In this document: positions 3,029 through 20,382 of the stretch, piece after piece
How the letters are laid out: each line of letters opens with the position of its first letter
Position numbering within the stretch: position 1 is the first letter of the stretch
DNA from: a virus
IMG/VR virus record: IMGVR_UViG_3300032086_003011
Location: 1 to 28,162 of that record
Reading direction: 5' to 3' (one strand)
Length of the DNA stretch: 28,162 nt
Position numbers and translations under genes: made by a program
The notes under the pieces: generated by a model
Databases searched by the model: none
What the model was told of the DNA's origin: nothing
What the model saw: the letters and a program-made list of their open reading frames with translations, nothing else

Positions 3029-3235
3029 TTATATTATCGATTCTTGTTCGTATTGAATTTGTAAATTTTCTAACGCTATTTTATAGCCATACTGGATAGC
3101 CATTTGCATTAGTATTAGTGAGCCTTGACCGCATCCGTCGGCAAAGTTCTCTAATTGTTCCCTGTTTTCAGGCGTTGCTACAATAACTCGATCAAGCTTC
3201 GCCATTTCGCTTTTTATATATTTATTTATTTCCAT
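3029..3235 (-). CDS. Hypothetical protein following the tRNA-like element
   Basis: 68 residues (M-E-I-N-K-Y-I-K-S-E-M), helical, unknown function; central P-E-N-R-E-Q-L-E and a G-C-G-Q-G turn. The start codon lies only two bases after the discriminator base of the tRNA-like element at 3238-3332, so cutting of that element at its 3' end would leave a nearly leaderless message. The C-terminus is encoded by promoter P2. Confidence 0.7.
   Translation of the reverse strand: MEINKYIKSEMAKLDRVIVATPENREQLENFADGCGQGSLILMQMAIQYGYKIALENLQIQYEQESII
3030..3065 (-). promoter_or_regulatory. Phage promoter element P2
   Basis: Minus-strand TTTACAAA-N3-AATACGAA-N6-TCGATAATATA, all boxes perfect. It lies entirely within the 3' coding end of the gene at 3029-3235, whose last residues (Q-I-Q-Y-E-Q-E-S-I-I) are encoded by the promoter. 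Leads the unit 3013 to 1267. Confidence 0.85.
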
Positions 3236-3237
3236 AG

Positions 3238-3332
3238 TGGACGTGGCAGGAATCGAACCTGCGTTATTGTTCTGTCAGCTCCGGCGTACTCACCTTCATA
3301 GCCCAGTGCTACAATCTAACCATTTCACGCCC
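3238..3332 (-). ncRNA. tRNA-like element (acceptor stem and T arm, no canonical D/anticodon arms)
   Basis: On the minus strand the 3' end has a perfect T arm (GCAGG, loop TTCGATT, CCTGC) followed by CACGTCC and discriminator A. The 5' end GGGCGTG pairs with CACGTCC over all 7 positions (one G-U). The 63 bases between do not form a normal D arm or a 7-base anticodon loop. Instead ATTGT-AGC can pair with GCT...ACAAT, leaving AAATGGTTAG as an unpaired D-loop-like linker, and GGTG-AGTA-CGCC forms an inner hairpin. An acceptor-T arm half with a long helix in place of the anticodon arm recalls the tRNA domain of tmRNA, but I see no tag reading frame. Alternatives: a decayed tRNA, or one with an insertion. 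CCA is not encoded. Confidence 0.6.
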
Positions 3333-3689
3333 ATATTCCCTCACTTGTTTTCAACCTAAAAGGCTTGGTGCTTTGTAGCACATGTTTCCCGTGAGGGACG
3401 GCTGCACACCGGTATGCATGCCGATTTCAAGTATGCTCGTATGTTTTTCGGTCGAGTTACAGCACCACACTCGTGCCCATACCTGTATATTTGAGAGGCG
3501 GACGGGACTGGAATGTTAGGAATGCACGTCATTTACTAGTATGTACCCTGACTTATATCCTTTTCTCTGTTTTATCCCGTCTTTCTGGCAATTCACTTAT
3601 GTGGTTTCCCCTAATTAAGCTACTCGTCCTTCCAACCTTAAACCTCTCTTTAGTGTGTCAAACATCCTTTCTGCTGAGTGGGAAACACA
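3333..3689 (-). ncRNA. Gene-free stretch, possible structured RNA
   Basis: About 357 bp between the zinc-finger gene and the tRNA-like element, with no convincing reading frame on either strand and visibly more G+C than the flanking genes. Inverted repeats: TAGTGTGT/ACACACTA (3651-3658 with 3685-3692), a 7-bp pair 3501-3507 with 3575-3581, CGAGT/ACTCG (3453-3457 with 3469-3473), and a 7-bp stem 3338-3344 with 3391-3397 enclosing GTGCT/AGCAC (3368-3372 with 3377-3381). Individual 7-bp pairings are not rare by chance, so this is a candidate only. The strand is inferred from the tRNA-like 3' end and from a G-U pair that works only on the minus strand. It would be transcribed from P3. Confidence 0.4.
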
Positions 3690-3878
3690 CTATTTACGCC
3701 GCCAAGCTCTGTGTACTGATGCACTTACTTCTTGGCTGACAATTTGTATTGTATTACCTGTTTTGTGAGTTATAATCGGTACATAACTGTAGTCTTCAAC
3801 AGTACTACAAGGTACACATGTTTTATAACCATATTCTAATCTAATAGGGTGCACTTCAGTGCCACATTTACAATACAT
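3690..3878 (-). CDS. Small DksA/TraR-type zinc-finger protein
   Basis: 62 residues with a four-cysteine zinc-finger pattern C3-x-C5-G ... C21-V-P-C24 and the spacing and sequence flavour (C-G-T-E-V-H-P-I-R-L-E) of DksA/TraR zinc fingers, followed by I-T-H-K-T-G-N-T-I-Q-I-V and a basic tail R-A-W-R-R-K. DksA-like proteins bind the RNA polymerase secondary channel. This one lacks the long coiled coil, so it may instead be a nucleic-acid-binding finger. First gene after P3; its stop codon forms part of an 8-bp inverted repeat that begins the non-coding stretch. Confidence 0.75.
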   Translation of the reverse strand: MYCKCGTEVHPIRLEYGYKTCVPCSTVEDYSYVPIITHKTGNTIQIVSQEVSASVHRAWRRK

Positions 3879-3900: not shown

Positions 3901-3936
3901 TATATTATCGATTTGTGTTCGTATTAGCTTTGTAAA
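3901..3936 (-). promoter_or_regulatory. Phage promoter element P3
   Basis: Minus-strand TTTACAAA-N3-AATACGAA-N6-TCGATAATATA, perfect boxes, includes TAATACGA. Begins at the stop codon of the upstream 45-residue gene. Leads the zinc-finger gene, the non-coding stretch with the tRNA-like element, and the gene at 3029-3235. Confidence 0.85.
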
Positions 3937-4074
3937 TTATTTTGAGTCACTTATCATTCTTCGTACGGCATTGCGTTTAAAATAATCTAACTCTGATTTC
4001 ATTTGTTTAATTTTTTGGTTAAGGTTAAAAACCTCAGTCTCTAGAGCCTTGACTCTTGCTTCGTTGTATTCCAT
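3937..4074 (-). CDS. Small coiled-coil protein
   Basis: 45 residues, starting M-E-Y-N-E-A-R-V-K-A-L-E. Heptad-spaced hydrophobics (V-K-A-L-E-T-E-V-F-N-L-N, then I-K-Q-M-K-S-E-L) predict a coiled coil, followed by a basic end (F-K-R-N-A-V-R-R). Function unknown. The start is 3 bases after the stop of the upstream gene, and the stop abuts P3. Last gene of the unit led by P4. Confidence 0.65.
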   Translation of the reverse strand: MEYNEARVKALETEVFNLNQKIKQMKSELDYFKRNAVRRMISDSK

Positions 4075-4892: not shown

Positions 4893-5085
4893 CCCAAATA
4901 GTCTTTTTGTCTTCTACATAAGTTAGGCCTTTGTAGTTGAACCATTGATAAATTCCGTCTTTATCTTTGTCTTCATCGTATTTGAAACCAAATGAAGGTG
5001 GTAAGCTACCGATAAGATAAGGTTTGTAAGTAACTCCGTTGAGTTTAATTTTTTTGTTTGTGGTAAATTTAATTGTATTTTGCAT
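4879..5085 (-). CDS. Hypothetical protein
   Basis: 68 residues, beta-rich with K-L-N-G-V-T-Y-K-P-Y-L-I-G and repeated K-D-K-D. Unknown function. First of six tightly packed genes driven by P4; the leader between promoter and ATG is about 26 bases of A and T. Confidence 0.7.
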   Translation of the reverse strand: MQNTIKFTTNKKIKLNGVTYKPYLIGSLPPSFGFKYDEDKDKDGIYQWFNYKGLTYVEDKKTIWDAFA

Positions 5086-5111
5086 AGTAAATTATTTATT
5101 TTTTATTCAAT

Positions 5112-5147
5112 TATATTATCGATTTGTATTCGTGTTTAGTTTGTAAA
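5112..5147 (-). promoter_or_regulatory. Phage promoter element P4
   Basis: Minus-strand TTTACAAA-N3-AACACGAA-N6-TCGATAATATA (one change in the middle box). It overlaps the last codons (S-F-T-N-stop) of the gene at 5136-5387. Leads six genes from 5085 to 3937. Confidence 0.83.
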
Positions 5148-5387
5148 ACTTCCATCGTGATACATAGTGTGAACTCTTTCCGATCGCCCTTGAGCCTCCC
5201 ATATTTTGTTATGAGAGTAGGAACGACCCTTGCTACCTGCGCCTTTGCCTTTAATGTACATTCGGTTGTACTCTTTTTCAGTTAGACCTCTGCATTGACC
5301 TTCATTGGCATGCTTAATTCGGTGCTTTCTATTTCGTTCACTTCTTGAGTTTTTAACGTACTCACACGCTTCTTTCATTGTCATCAT
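5136..5387 (-). CDS. Hypothetical basic protein
   Basis: 83 residues, basic and polar (S-R-S-E-R-N-R-K-H-R-I-K-H), with G-K-G-A-G-S-K-G-R in the middle; probably nucleic-acid binding by composition. Three Met codons lie close together at the start; 5387 overlaps the upstream stop (ATGATGA). The last residues S-F-T-N are encoded by P4. Confidence 0.68.
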   Translation of the reverse strand: MMTMKEACEYVKNSRSERNRKHRIKHANEGQCRGLTEKEYNRMYIKGKGAGSKGRSYSHNKIWEAQGRSERVHTMYHDGSFTN

Positions 5388-5533
5388 AGTTTAGTTCTTA
5401 TAGTTTTACACGCGTCTAACCGTTCTTGCCACTCATCACCGCATTCCCGCTCTTCCATTAAATATTGTATGTGTTCTTCCATATGGTCTAAAGCGACCAG
5501 CAACACATTTTTTTCTATATTCGTTAGTTTCAT
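5384..5533 (-). CDS. Small helical hypothetical protein
   Basis: 49 residues: M-K-L-T-N-I-E-K-N-V-L-L-V-A-L-D-H-M-E-E and so on, ending T-I-R-T-K-L. A two-helix acidic protein of unknown function. The start overlaps the upstream stop (ATGA), the end overlaps the next start. Confidence 0.68.
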   Translation of the reverse strand: MKLTNIEKNVLLVALDHMEEHIQYLMEERECGDEWQERLDACKTIRTKL

Positions 5534-14712: not shown

Positions 14713-16254
14713 ATGTCTGACGCAATAGTTAAGAATTTAAACTTTGGCAGCGAAGCTAAAGAAAAAATCTTTAATGGAATAACAAAATTAACAAAGGCCG
14801 TAAGTTCTACACTCGGAGCAAGCGGCCAATGTGTAATCCTTGAAGATGATAGAGGAAAGCCTGTTATCACCAAAGATGGTGTTACCGTAGCGAACAATAT
14901 AATTTTACTAGACCCAGTAGAAAATATGGGAGCTACTCTAATTAAGCAGGCTGCACAGCGAACAGTAAGCGAGGCTGGTGATGGAACCACCACAGCGACG
15001 GTGCTGGCGCACGCTATACTTGAAAAAGCATACCAAGCGCTTAAGTCACAAAGCTCTCGTAATTTAAAGGGTGGTATTACCACTGGCGTTGAAAAAGTAA
15101 TAAAGCACCTAGAAAAAAACGCAATTGAAGTAACAGATGATATGATTGATCAGGTTGCTACAATATCTGCTAATAATGATGCTGAACTGGGTAAAACTAT
15201 AAGTGACGCATTTAAGGCTGTAGATAAAACAGGTATTGTCATAATGCAGGAGACAGACCAACCCAATACCACGATAGAACTGGTTGATGGCTTGCAGTAT
15301 GATAAGGGTTTAAAAACACATCACTTCATTACTAATAAAGATTCTGGTAGTGCTGTTTTAGAAAAACCACTTGTGCTTATAGTAGAGTCGCCAATACCAA
15401 ACATACGCAGAATACAAAATATACTGGAGTATGTAATTAAAAATAAAAGATCATTGCTTATTATTGCAGATGTGGAGCCACAGGTTCTAAATACTCTCGC
15501 GATGAACAAGGTTAAAGGAAATCTTAATATAAATATTATTGATCTTCCCACATATGGTATAAGCCGAAAAGAAATGGCTATGGACTTAGCAATGATGACG
15601 GGAGCTAAAATAATTAATGAAGAGCTTGGCGATGATATGGATTTTATCAATCCGGAGTTTTTAGGCGAATGTGTAAGAGCTACGACCACTAATGATGAAA
15701 CTATATTGCAAGTTAATCGTAATAGCGAAGAAATAGACGAGCAAATAGCAAGTATTAAAGAGGAGCTTGAAAAACCTTCGCTTGCTGGCGTTAGAGTCCG
15801 GCTTGAAAAACGATTAGCCCGACTAACAGCTAAAATGGCTGTAGTAAAAGTCGGTGCAAATTCCGAAGTAGAATTAAAAGAAAAACGCGATAGAGTAGAA
15901 GACGCTATATGTGCTACGAAAGCCGCAATAAAAGAAGGTATTGTACCTGGAGGAGGTATTGCTTTGCTTAATGCATTTAATGCTATTACAGCTAAAAACG
16001 AGGGCGAAGAAGTTTTGTTTGAAGCAATTAAAGCTCCATATGAAACAATCCTCAAAAATGCAGATTTAGATATTGTTTATCCCCAAACAAAAAATAAGGG
16101 GTTAAATGTTGTTACAGGTAAAGACGTGAATATGGTGCGCGCGGGCATTATCGATCCTTTATTGGTTACTAAAAGTGCACTTCGAAACGCGGCTTCAGTA
16201 GCTACAACAATACTATCAACTGATTGTGTAATTAATAACTTAAGAGTACAATGA
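14713..16254 (+). CDS. groEL: Phage chaperonin GroEL (Cpn60)
   Basis: 513 residues, a complete group I chaperonin. ATP-site features are present: I-T-K-D55-G-V-T, G-D90-G-T-T-T (ATP/Mg binding), R-V-E-D397 (catalytic Asp equivalent), V-P-G-G-G (411-415) and A-G-I-I-D-P near 477-482. The apical domain (about 190-380) keeps the N-I-R-R-I and N-I-N-I-I-D segments at lower similarity. It lacks the Gly-Gly-Met C-terminal tail of bacterial GroEL. Its stop overlaps the groES start (ATGA), so the two are coupled. Among fibre, holin and head genes, its likely clients are the large fibres or the capsid protein. Confidence 0.95.
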   Translation: MSDAIVKNLNFGSEAKEKIFNGITKLTKAVSSTLGASGQCVILEDDRGKPVITKDGVTVANNIILLDPVENMGATLIKQAAQRTVSEAGDGTTTATVLAHAILEKAYQALKSQSSRNLKGGITTGVEKVIKHLEKNAIEVTDDMIDQVATISANNDAELGKTISDAFKAVDKTGIVIMQETDQPNTTIELVDGLQYDKGLKTHHFITNKDSGSAVLEKPLVLIVESPIPNIRRIQNILEYVIKNKRSLLIIADVEPQVLNTLAMNKVKGNLNINIIDLPTYGISRKEMAMDLAMMTGAKIINEELGDDMDFINPEFLGECVRATTTNDETILQVNRNSEEIDEQIASIKEELEKPSLAGVRVRLEKRLARLTAKMAVVKVGANSEVELKEKRDRVEDAICATKAAIKEGIVPGGGIALLNAFNAITAKNEGEEVLFEAIKAPYETILKNADLDIVYPQTKNKGLNVVTGKDVNMVRAGIIDPLLVTKSALRNAASVATTILSTDCVINNLRVQ

Positions 16255-19557: not shown

Positions 19558-19777
19558 CGTTATAAGAAAGATCAGTATTGGGTCTGACTACAAGAATGAC
19601 GCTATGCATTATTCTATTGGGCAGCAAGTGTACGGTGGTCATGAAATAGCGGACATATTGTTTGAAGATAGTGATTCTTCTTATAATATATACATAAAGA
19701 AAAACAATGAGGTATTGCCATGGAAGAAGTTTAATTCTAACATGGCCATATCTATTGAGTATGACCTAGAGTATTGA
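19550..19777 (+). CDS. Conserved small phage protein
   Basis: 75 residues starting M-H-N-V-I-R-K-I-S-I-G, with Y-K-N-D-A-M-H-Y-S-I-G-Q and Y-N-I-Y-I-K-K-N. Compact beta-rich protein, function unknown. Overlaps both neighbours by a few bases. Confidence 0.72.
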   Translation: MHNVIRKISIGSDYKNDAMHYSIGQQVYGGHEIADILFEDSDSSYNIYIKKNNEVLPWKKFNSNMAISIEYDLEY

Positions 19778-20382
19778 TGAAGAGTTTATATAGCTTTATT
19801 GTTAAACCCTATGATAAGCGGTATAACAATACAAAGAAAGTGGGTGACAATAGCCTCTTACTAAATAATAATATAGAAAGCTTTCGTCACATAAGTAAAA
19901 AAGCTATTGTTGTTTCTGTTCCTGCAGCGTATAAAACGCCAATAAAGGAAGGGGATACAGTAATGATCCACCATAATATATTTAGAAGATATTATGATCA
20001 TAATGGAAGAGAGAAAAACGGAAGTCTTTATTTTAAAGAAAACCTGTATTTCACTCAGATGGATCAGGTTTATGCTTATAATGACGGCAATGGGTGGAAG
20101 TCCCATTTGAATTATTGCTTTATAAAACCAATAAAACAAACAAGCTCATATTCGCTTGAAAAAGAGCAAAAGCATATTGGTATACTAAAGTATGGTAATA
20201 GTGCCTTAGAAGCGCTTAAAATTAACCCTGGTGATCTAGTCGGATACACTCCTTATGGCGAATTCGAGTTTATCATAGATAATGAAAGGGTTTATTGTAT
20301 GAAATCAAATGATATAGCCTTAAAGTATGGACGTAAAGGAAACGAAGAGGAATATAATCCGAGCTGGGCAAAAAGCAGTTAA
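19774..20382 (+). CDS. Phage protein with probable GroES-like fold
   Basis: 202 residues. The C-terminal part (about 137-190) has I-G-I-L-K-Y-G-N-S-A-L, I-N-P-G-D-L-V-G-Y, E-F-I-I-D-N-E-R-V-Y and S-N-D-I-A, laid out like the Cpn10 core of this phage's own GroES (N-D-R-I-Y-Y, I-E-F-D-E-V-I-Y, A-Q-D-V-V). The N-terminal part has V-V-S-V-P-A-A-Y-K-T-P-I-K-E-G-D-T-V-M-I-H-H-N, a similar beta-barrel style. I infer one or two GroES-like folds, without a clear mobile loop. It lies just before the packaging genes. Confidence 0.6.
   Translation: MMKSLYSFIVKPYDKRYNNTKKVGDNSLLLNNNIESFRHISKKAIVVSVPAAYKTPIKEGDTVMIHHNIFRRYYDHNGREKNGSLYFKENLYFTQMDQVYAYNDGNGWKSHLNYCFIKPIKQTSSYSLEKEQKHIGILKYGNSALEALKINPGDLVGYTPYGEFEFIIDNERVYCMKSNDIALKYGRKGNEEEYNPSWAKSS

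Follow-up and report, generated by a model that had tools for sequence, protein, structure and literature searches.

A probable tagless tmRNA relative, reduced to its tRNA-like domain and fitted with exchangeable inserts, in marine phages

The locus and its features

The stretch of DNA that we analysed (28,162 nucleotides of IMG/VR record IMGVR_UViG_3300032086_003011, here called the window) comes from a phage whose terminase is akin to terminases found in phages of Flavobacterium, Cellulophaga and Tenacibaculum. The same record encodes phage GroEL and GroES homologues (PHROG) and a GP88-family protein (PF17338), at window positions 14713-16254, 19774-20382 and 1267-1881. On the minus strand, between two small proteins, lies a tRNA-like element; read along that strand, the features of the locus are:

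3901..3939, minus strand: early-promoter-like motif TTTACAAAnnTAATACGAA-n5-TCGATAATATA, with about nine copies upstream of minus-strand genes
3690..3878, minus strand: upstream small protein, 62 aa, apparently on the same transcript; no Pfam match and only a weak PHROG match
3650..3691, minus strand: hairpin module that is the insert of the tRNA-like domain in loci L157 and L203 (88% over 42 nt, 96% over 27 nt)
3585..3640, minus strand: second RNA scaffold, GACGAGTAGCTTAATTAGG - short loop - ACATAAGTGAAT, with a closing stem; outer and inner stems covary
3433..3480, minus strand: module that is the insert of the tRNA-like domain in locus L111 (83% over 48 nt)
3338..3397, minus strand: RNA element closed by CCCTCAC/GTGAGGG, predicted from its fold, directly upstream of the tRNA-like domain and conserved in L147, L199, L282 and L110
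3238..3332, minus strand: putative tRNA-like-domain-only tmRNA relative (acceptor, tmRNA-type D loop, insert-bearing P2, T arm, A73), made up of the next eight features
3326..3332, minus strand: acceptor 5' strand GGGCGTG, with G3 of G3.U70
3316..3325, minus strand: D-loop-like segment AAATGGTTAG without a D stem; its GG is invariant among the relatives compared
3311..3315, minus strand: P2 helix 5' strand ATTGT, its register fixed across relatives
3271..3310, minus strand: 40-nt exchangeable insert in place of a message domain; this version is absent from the other loci compared
3266..3270, minus strand: P2 helix 3' strand ACAAT
3246..3262, minus strand: T arm GCAGG-TTCGATT-CCTGC
3239..3245, minus strand: acceptor 3' strand CACGTCC, with U70, pairing with GGGCGTG
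3238, minus strand: A73, followed by CTA in place of CCA
3029..3235, minus strand: downstream small protein, 68 aa, whose ATG begins 3 nt downstream of A73 (two bases between), so that CTA overlaps ATG

Copies of the promoter-like motif lie on the minus strand at window positions 1237, 3038, 3909, 5120, 5801, 6299, 7029, 7254 and 7454, upstream of early genes. We also note that antisense open reading frames over the T arm (3237-3359 on the plus strand of the window, and 5066-5479 on the minus strand of L344) yield M(V)DVAGIEP... on translation, typical of a spurious protein.

Direct inspection of the letters gives a 95-nt RNA on the minus strand, a strand that the initial annotation had left unspecified. 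It runs from 3332 to 3238 and is closed, as that annotation had described, by a perfect T arm and a 7-bp acceptor: all five T-arm pairs and all seven acceptor pairs form, with a single G.U at 3:70. The same annotation held that the interior lacks the usual D and anticodon arms, and neither arm is present. Three nucleotides (AAC) separate the 3' strand of P2 from the T arm. When the window's copy is folded as a single sequence, the acceptor and T arm form with a probability of about 1.0; the comparative ATTGT/ACAAT register reaches only about 0.1, and a shifted P2 register is better by 2.2 kcal/mol. Because the register accounts for only about 10% of this ensemble, P2 in the window's copy rests on comparison. 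From the pairing of the letters alone, this helix could be extended by AGC/GCT.

Kinship with tmRNA

ARAGORN calls neither a tRNA nor a tmRNA in the window, and nothing there passes the Rfam gathering cut-offs. At a relaxed threshold, the tmRNA model RF00023 aligns with the element from one model end to the other, apart from the middle, which the element lacks (35.6 bits, E 1.8e-12, cut-off 47). As a limit on this score, the same model reaches about 27 bits at unrelated places in one bacterial genome, probably tRNAs. Relatives of the element score 63-71 bits, above the cut-off, again with the message domain missing, and their matches span the model ends (1-374) in mostly 66-82 nt. The window's element lacks the marks of a tRNA (D and anticodon arms; a call by ARAGORN or RF00005) and those of a full tmRNA (a tag reading frame and a pseudoknot-bearing message domain). 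A normal or intron-bearing tRNA, which would have refuted the initial annotation, is rejected, since ARAGORN and Rfam find none and the D and anticodon stems are absent. The annotation had also proposed covariance-model searches for GOLLD and ROOL, large noncoding RNAs of elaborate structure that are associated with phages and tRNAs; these gave no Rfam match in the window or the loci scanned. Separately, ARAGORN reports the 186-nt element at L236 4285-4470 as a tmRNA; this element is tagless and bears a large insert, and the call is likely wrong.

Covariation served as a test of the fold. We condensed 47 relatives to the acceptor, the D loop, 7 nt from each end of the insert and the T arm, and set the P2 register by position (directly after GGTNAG and 3 nt before the T arm) and not by fit. 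Changes on both sides occur in all seven P2 pairs, and the covariation score is 0.428 against 0.112 for shuffled data (reached in 0 of 500 shuffles), with slid structures scoring 0.05-0.10. P2 has at least 5 bp in 62 of 84 relatives, compared with a mean of 12.5 (maximum 18) when the 3' halves are swapped. The helix that takes the place of the anticodon arm is fixed in position and unrelated in sequence among relatives, and the ATTGT/ACAAT pairing that had been proposed from the window alone coincides with it and withstands this comparison among homologues. Relatives were selected for a paired acceptor and T arm, and therefore the 100% pairing of these stems is not evidence in itself. Acceptor pair 4:69 does vary (C-G, A-U, G-C).

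The pair G3.U70 is the identity element by which AlaRS recognises tRNA-Ala and tmRNA. Among 60 elements from loci fetched without any domain-specific pattern, position 3:70 is G.U in 50, A-U in 5 and something else in 5, and the pair is rare in the phage tRNAs of the same loci. Judged from sequence, we hold it highly probable that the element is a tRNA-like-domain-only relative of tmRNA. The initial annotation's likening of the layout to the tRNA domain of tmRNA without a tag is borne out by the tmRNA match, relatives that exceed the cut-off without a message domain, the D loop, G3.U70, the covariation of P2 and the lack of coding capacity.

Relatives and exchanged modules

At comparable positions, syntenic relatives have T-arm elements whose sequence ends in ACTA. 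The 19-mer GACGAGTAGCTTAATTAGG, just upstream of the window's element, occurs in 57 viral contigs, and 45 of the 57, whose retrieval made no use of the domain, contain it. A further pattern scan yielded additional relatives; besides these, ARAGORN called about 20 tmRNAs with this 3' end on phage contigs, the majority full-length. In all, 84 distinct relatives were parsed from phage contigs; some contigs are present twice under different loci, so our counts are of distinct element sequences and not of genomes. The acceptors fall into the classes GGGCGTG/CACGTCC, GGGAGTG/CACTTCC and GGGGGTG/CACCTCC, the last with a tmRNA-type D loop (GGTTTTGAC), about 65-66 bits against the cut-off of 47 and no message domain. 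Searches of whole records (24 of 30 matched) give one convincing copy per phage record with a match. No element was seen in 80 terminase loci because these cover another part of the genome, and one whole record from that set carries it. In the named relatives elemo (MT497065) and MW202828 the tmRNA model finds none.

For the genomes of 84,980 cellular species there are just 5 matches, each of them to a metagenome-assembled genome. We examined one of these, L344, which lies on a contig bearing the phage's own genes; the same assembled genome also contains a genuine 142-bit tmRNA. Cultured phages carry similar elements: a model built from our alignment detects an unannotated copy, situated amid tRNA genes, in Microbacterium phages Gack, Celaena, FlameThrower, Bachaco, Skylord and Eden (28-43 bits; E-values of this model are rough, and the window is among its training sequences). 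These copies keep GGGCCTG/CAGGTCC, that is G3.U70, and their T arm and inner stems covary. BLAST with the Gack copy finds 29 Microbacterium records, in part through flanking sequence.

Two other matches in named phages are not this element. In Mycobacterium phage MrMagoo (NC_053515.1, L323 187-530) the match is a full-length tmRNA of 101.5 bits, unannotated in the record; in Vibrio phage BUCT194 (MZ447858.1, L322 412-526) it is a tRNA-like gene, likewise unannotated, whose anticodon loop carries a long insert.

Other T-arm elements were seen along the way. Tiny ones (L100, L108, L128, L279 and others) join an acceptor and a T arm by about 10 nt, with no third arm and no G3.U70, in the layout AGACATAATGGTTAAT-T arm-CATGTCT ACTA; variants in L124, L137, L160 and L164 bear a 35-nt insert. 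In a further class, AACTAGG...CTAGTT (L005 3090-3390, L087, L092, L118), the inserts are exchanged and the T arm is preceded by a conserved strand, ACCGACGGGTA or ACTGACGAGTAT.

What is an insert of the tRNA-like domain in one phage can reappear, up to 100% identical, within the second scaffold of other phages, which we call the GACGAG scaffold. Examples are 47 nt at 100% (L286 in L112), 51 nt at 96% (L109 in L127) and 31 nt at 97% (L089 in L123), and in the cross-matched modules the scaffold sequence differs on both sides. At E<=1e-5 a cross-match exists for 12 of the 97 inserts from domains and for 17 of the 42 from scaffolds; shuffled inserts produce 2 matches in total at E<=0.01. The GACGAG scaffold has no Rfam match in the window or the smaller loci scanned, and in the literature found (most subscription papers lay outside the search) neither it nor the module exchange is described; as a kind of RNA it is apparently undescribed. 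It is possible, although we regard the idea as doubtful, that these phages run a combinatorial RNA system in which small structured modules, kept as a pool, change places between at least two conserved sockets (the tagless tmRNA and the undescribed scaffold). Selection for diversity would drive it, for instance to counter host defences that sense RNA or cut tRNAs. That structured modules pass from one RNA scaffold to another is unusual and merits separate study.

Proposed function and known systems

What might such an RNA do? We lean, without much assurance, towards a decoy that competes with host tmRNA; this function is inferred, and there are no expression, charging or SmpB-binding data. The inference of competition is made because the element has no resume codon. 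The promoter-like repeats suggest that the element would be transcribed early along with its neighbours; the transcript would then be trimmed like a tRNA, receive CCA and be charged with alanine, SmpB and EF-Tu would bind the charged RNA, and host tmRNA would be outcompeted, so that trans-translation is damped during infection. The target is most likely SmpB, or other tmRNA partners, early in infection, which again is inferred and not shown. A precedent is the tRNA-like-domain-only (TLD-only) tmRNA of phage DS6A; a molecule of that type is a strong inhibitor of tmRNA, whether chargeable or not, perhaps through SmpB titration (PMC4131195, PMC11915505). Among the functions that the initial annotation had offered, trapping of host factors fits best, and there is no evidence for priming of replication. 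It counts against the decoy that large exchangeable inserts are unnecessary for it, and that G3.U70 is missing from some of the related T-arm elements which these phages carry.

In the main rival, the tRNA-like domain is a stabilising chassis that provides processing and protection to an inserted hairpin, the working part. tRNA scaffolds are used in the laboratory for stabilising inserted RNAs, and here the same modules occur in the domain and in the GACGAG scaffold, with inserts that vary in length from 22 to 135 nt. However, a chassis does not require the conservation of G3.U70, and relatives with almost no insert exist (L234 is a bare hairpin). We think this explanation unlikely while still giving it real weight; it is compatible with the decoy, and both can be true.

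Three further explanations fare worse. The position of the downstream ATG, 3 nt past A73 in the window and in about a dozen other loci, would suit a cis-acting processing or regulatory element in which a cut at the tRNA-like end leaves a leaderless mRNA, but in most relatives a tRNA or a gap and not an immediate gene ATG comes next, and we consider this improbable. A tmRNA that has shrunk yet still functions, adding only a very short tag, is even harder to sustain. Tags of 2 aa are known in some bacteria (PMC11915505), and the frame of L248 ends in ALA; against this, a tag-like frame is found in only 1 of 84 relatives and many inserts are bare hairpins, with at most 24 nt between the P2 strands in 36 of 74. 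We therefore reject a coding tag in the insert, and as far as the letters can tell no tag frame is plausible. Least credible of all, and contradicted by the evidence at hand, is a decaying tRNA gene of which only the ends are retained: an intact tRNA-Met(CAT) or tRNA-Gln does lie nearby in many relatives, but P2 and acceptor pair 4:69 covary, G3.U70 is present, and the intact tRNA-Met coexists with the element in the same locus.

The tagless phage tmRNA in the literature that we found is from a single phage. Here the form is in scores of marine phage contigs with a conserved alanine signature, which suggests that phages may commonly interfere with the rescue of ribosomes. Cultured phages of Microbacterium foliorum with an unannotated copy make this testable now.

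Compared with tmRNA itself (RF00023, ssrA), the elements share the G3.U70 acceptor, the stemless D loop, the T arm and the position of P2; they differ in having no pseudoknots, resume codon or tag frame, and in being roughly 65-180 nt long as opposed to about 370. Full-length phage tmRNAs are also known (PMC9004378). With the large, ornate GOLLD and ROOL RNAs (PMC12286853) they share the character of structured noncoding RNAs tied to phages and tRNAs, but neither the window nor the loci scanned gave an Rfam match. Mitochondrial and plastid tmRNAs without a coding sequence likewise keep a tRNA-like domain and no tag frame; these are organellar, the mitochondrial genes are usually permuted, and exchangeable inserts are not mentioned in the passages of PMC11915505 that we consulted. 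The closest known system is the TLD-only tmRNA of mycobacteriophage DS6A (Mao et al. 2009, as cited in PMC4131195 and PMC11915505). The tRNA-like-domain-only form is therefore already known, and as far as these citing papers describe it, the DS6A molecule is also phage-encoded, tagless and little more than the tRNA-like domain of tmRNA. What is new is that the form is widespread and that its hairpins are exchanged with a second scaffold: unlike DS6A's, as described there, the present element belongs to a different and abundant phage group, carries exchangeable inserts and stands beside a second module-bearing scaffold.
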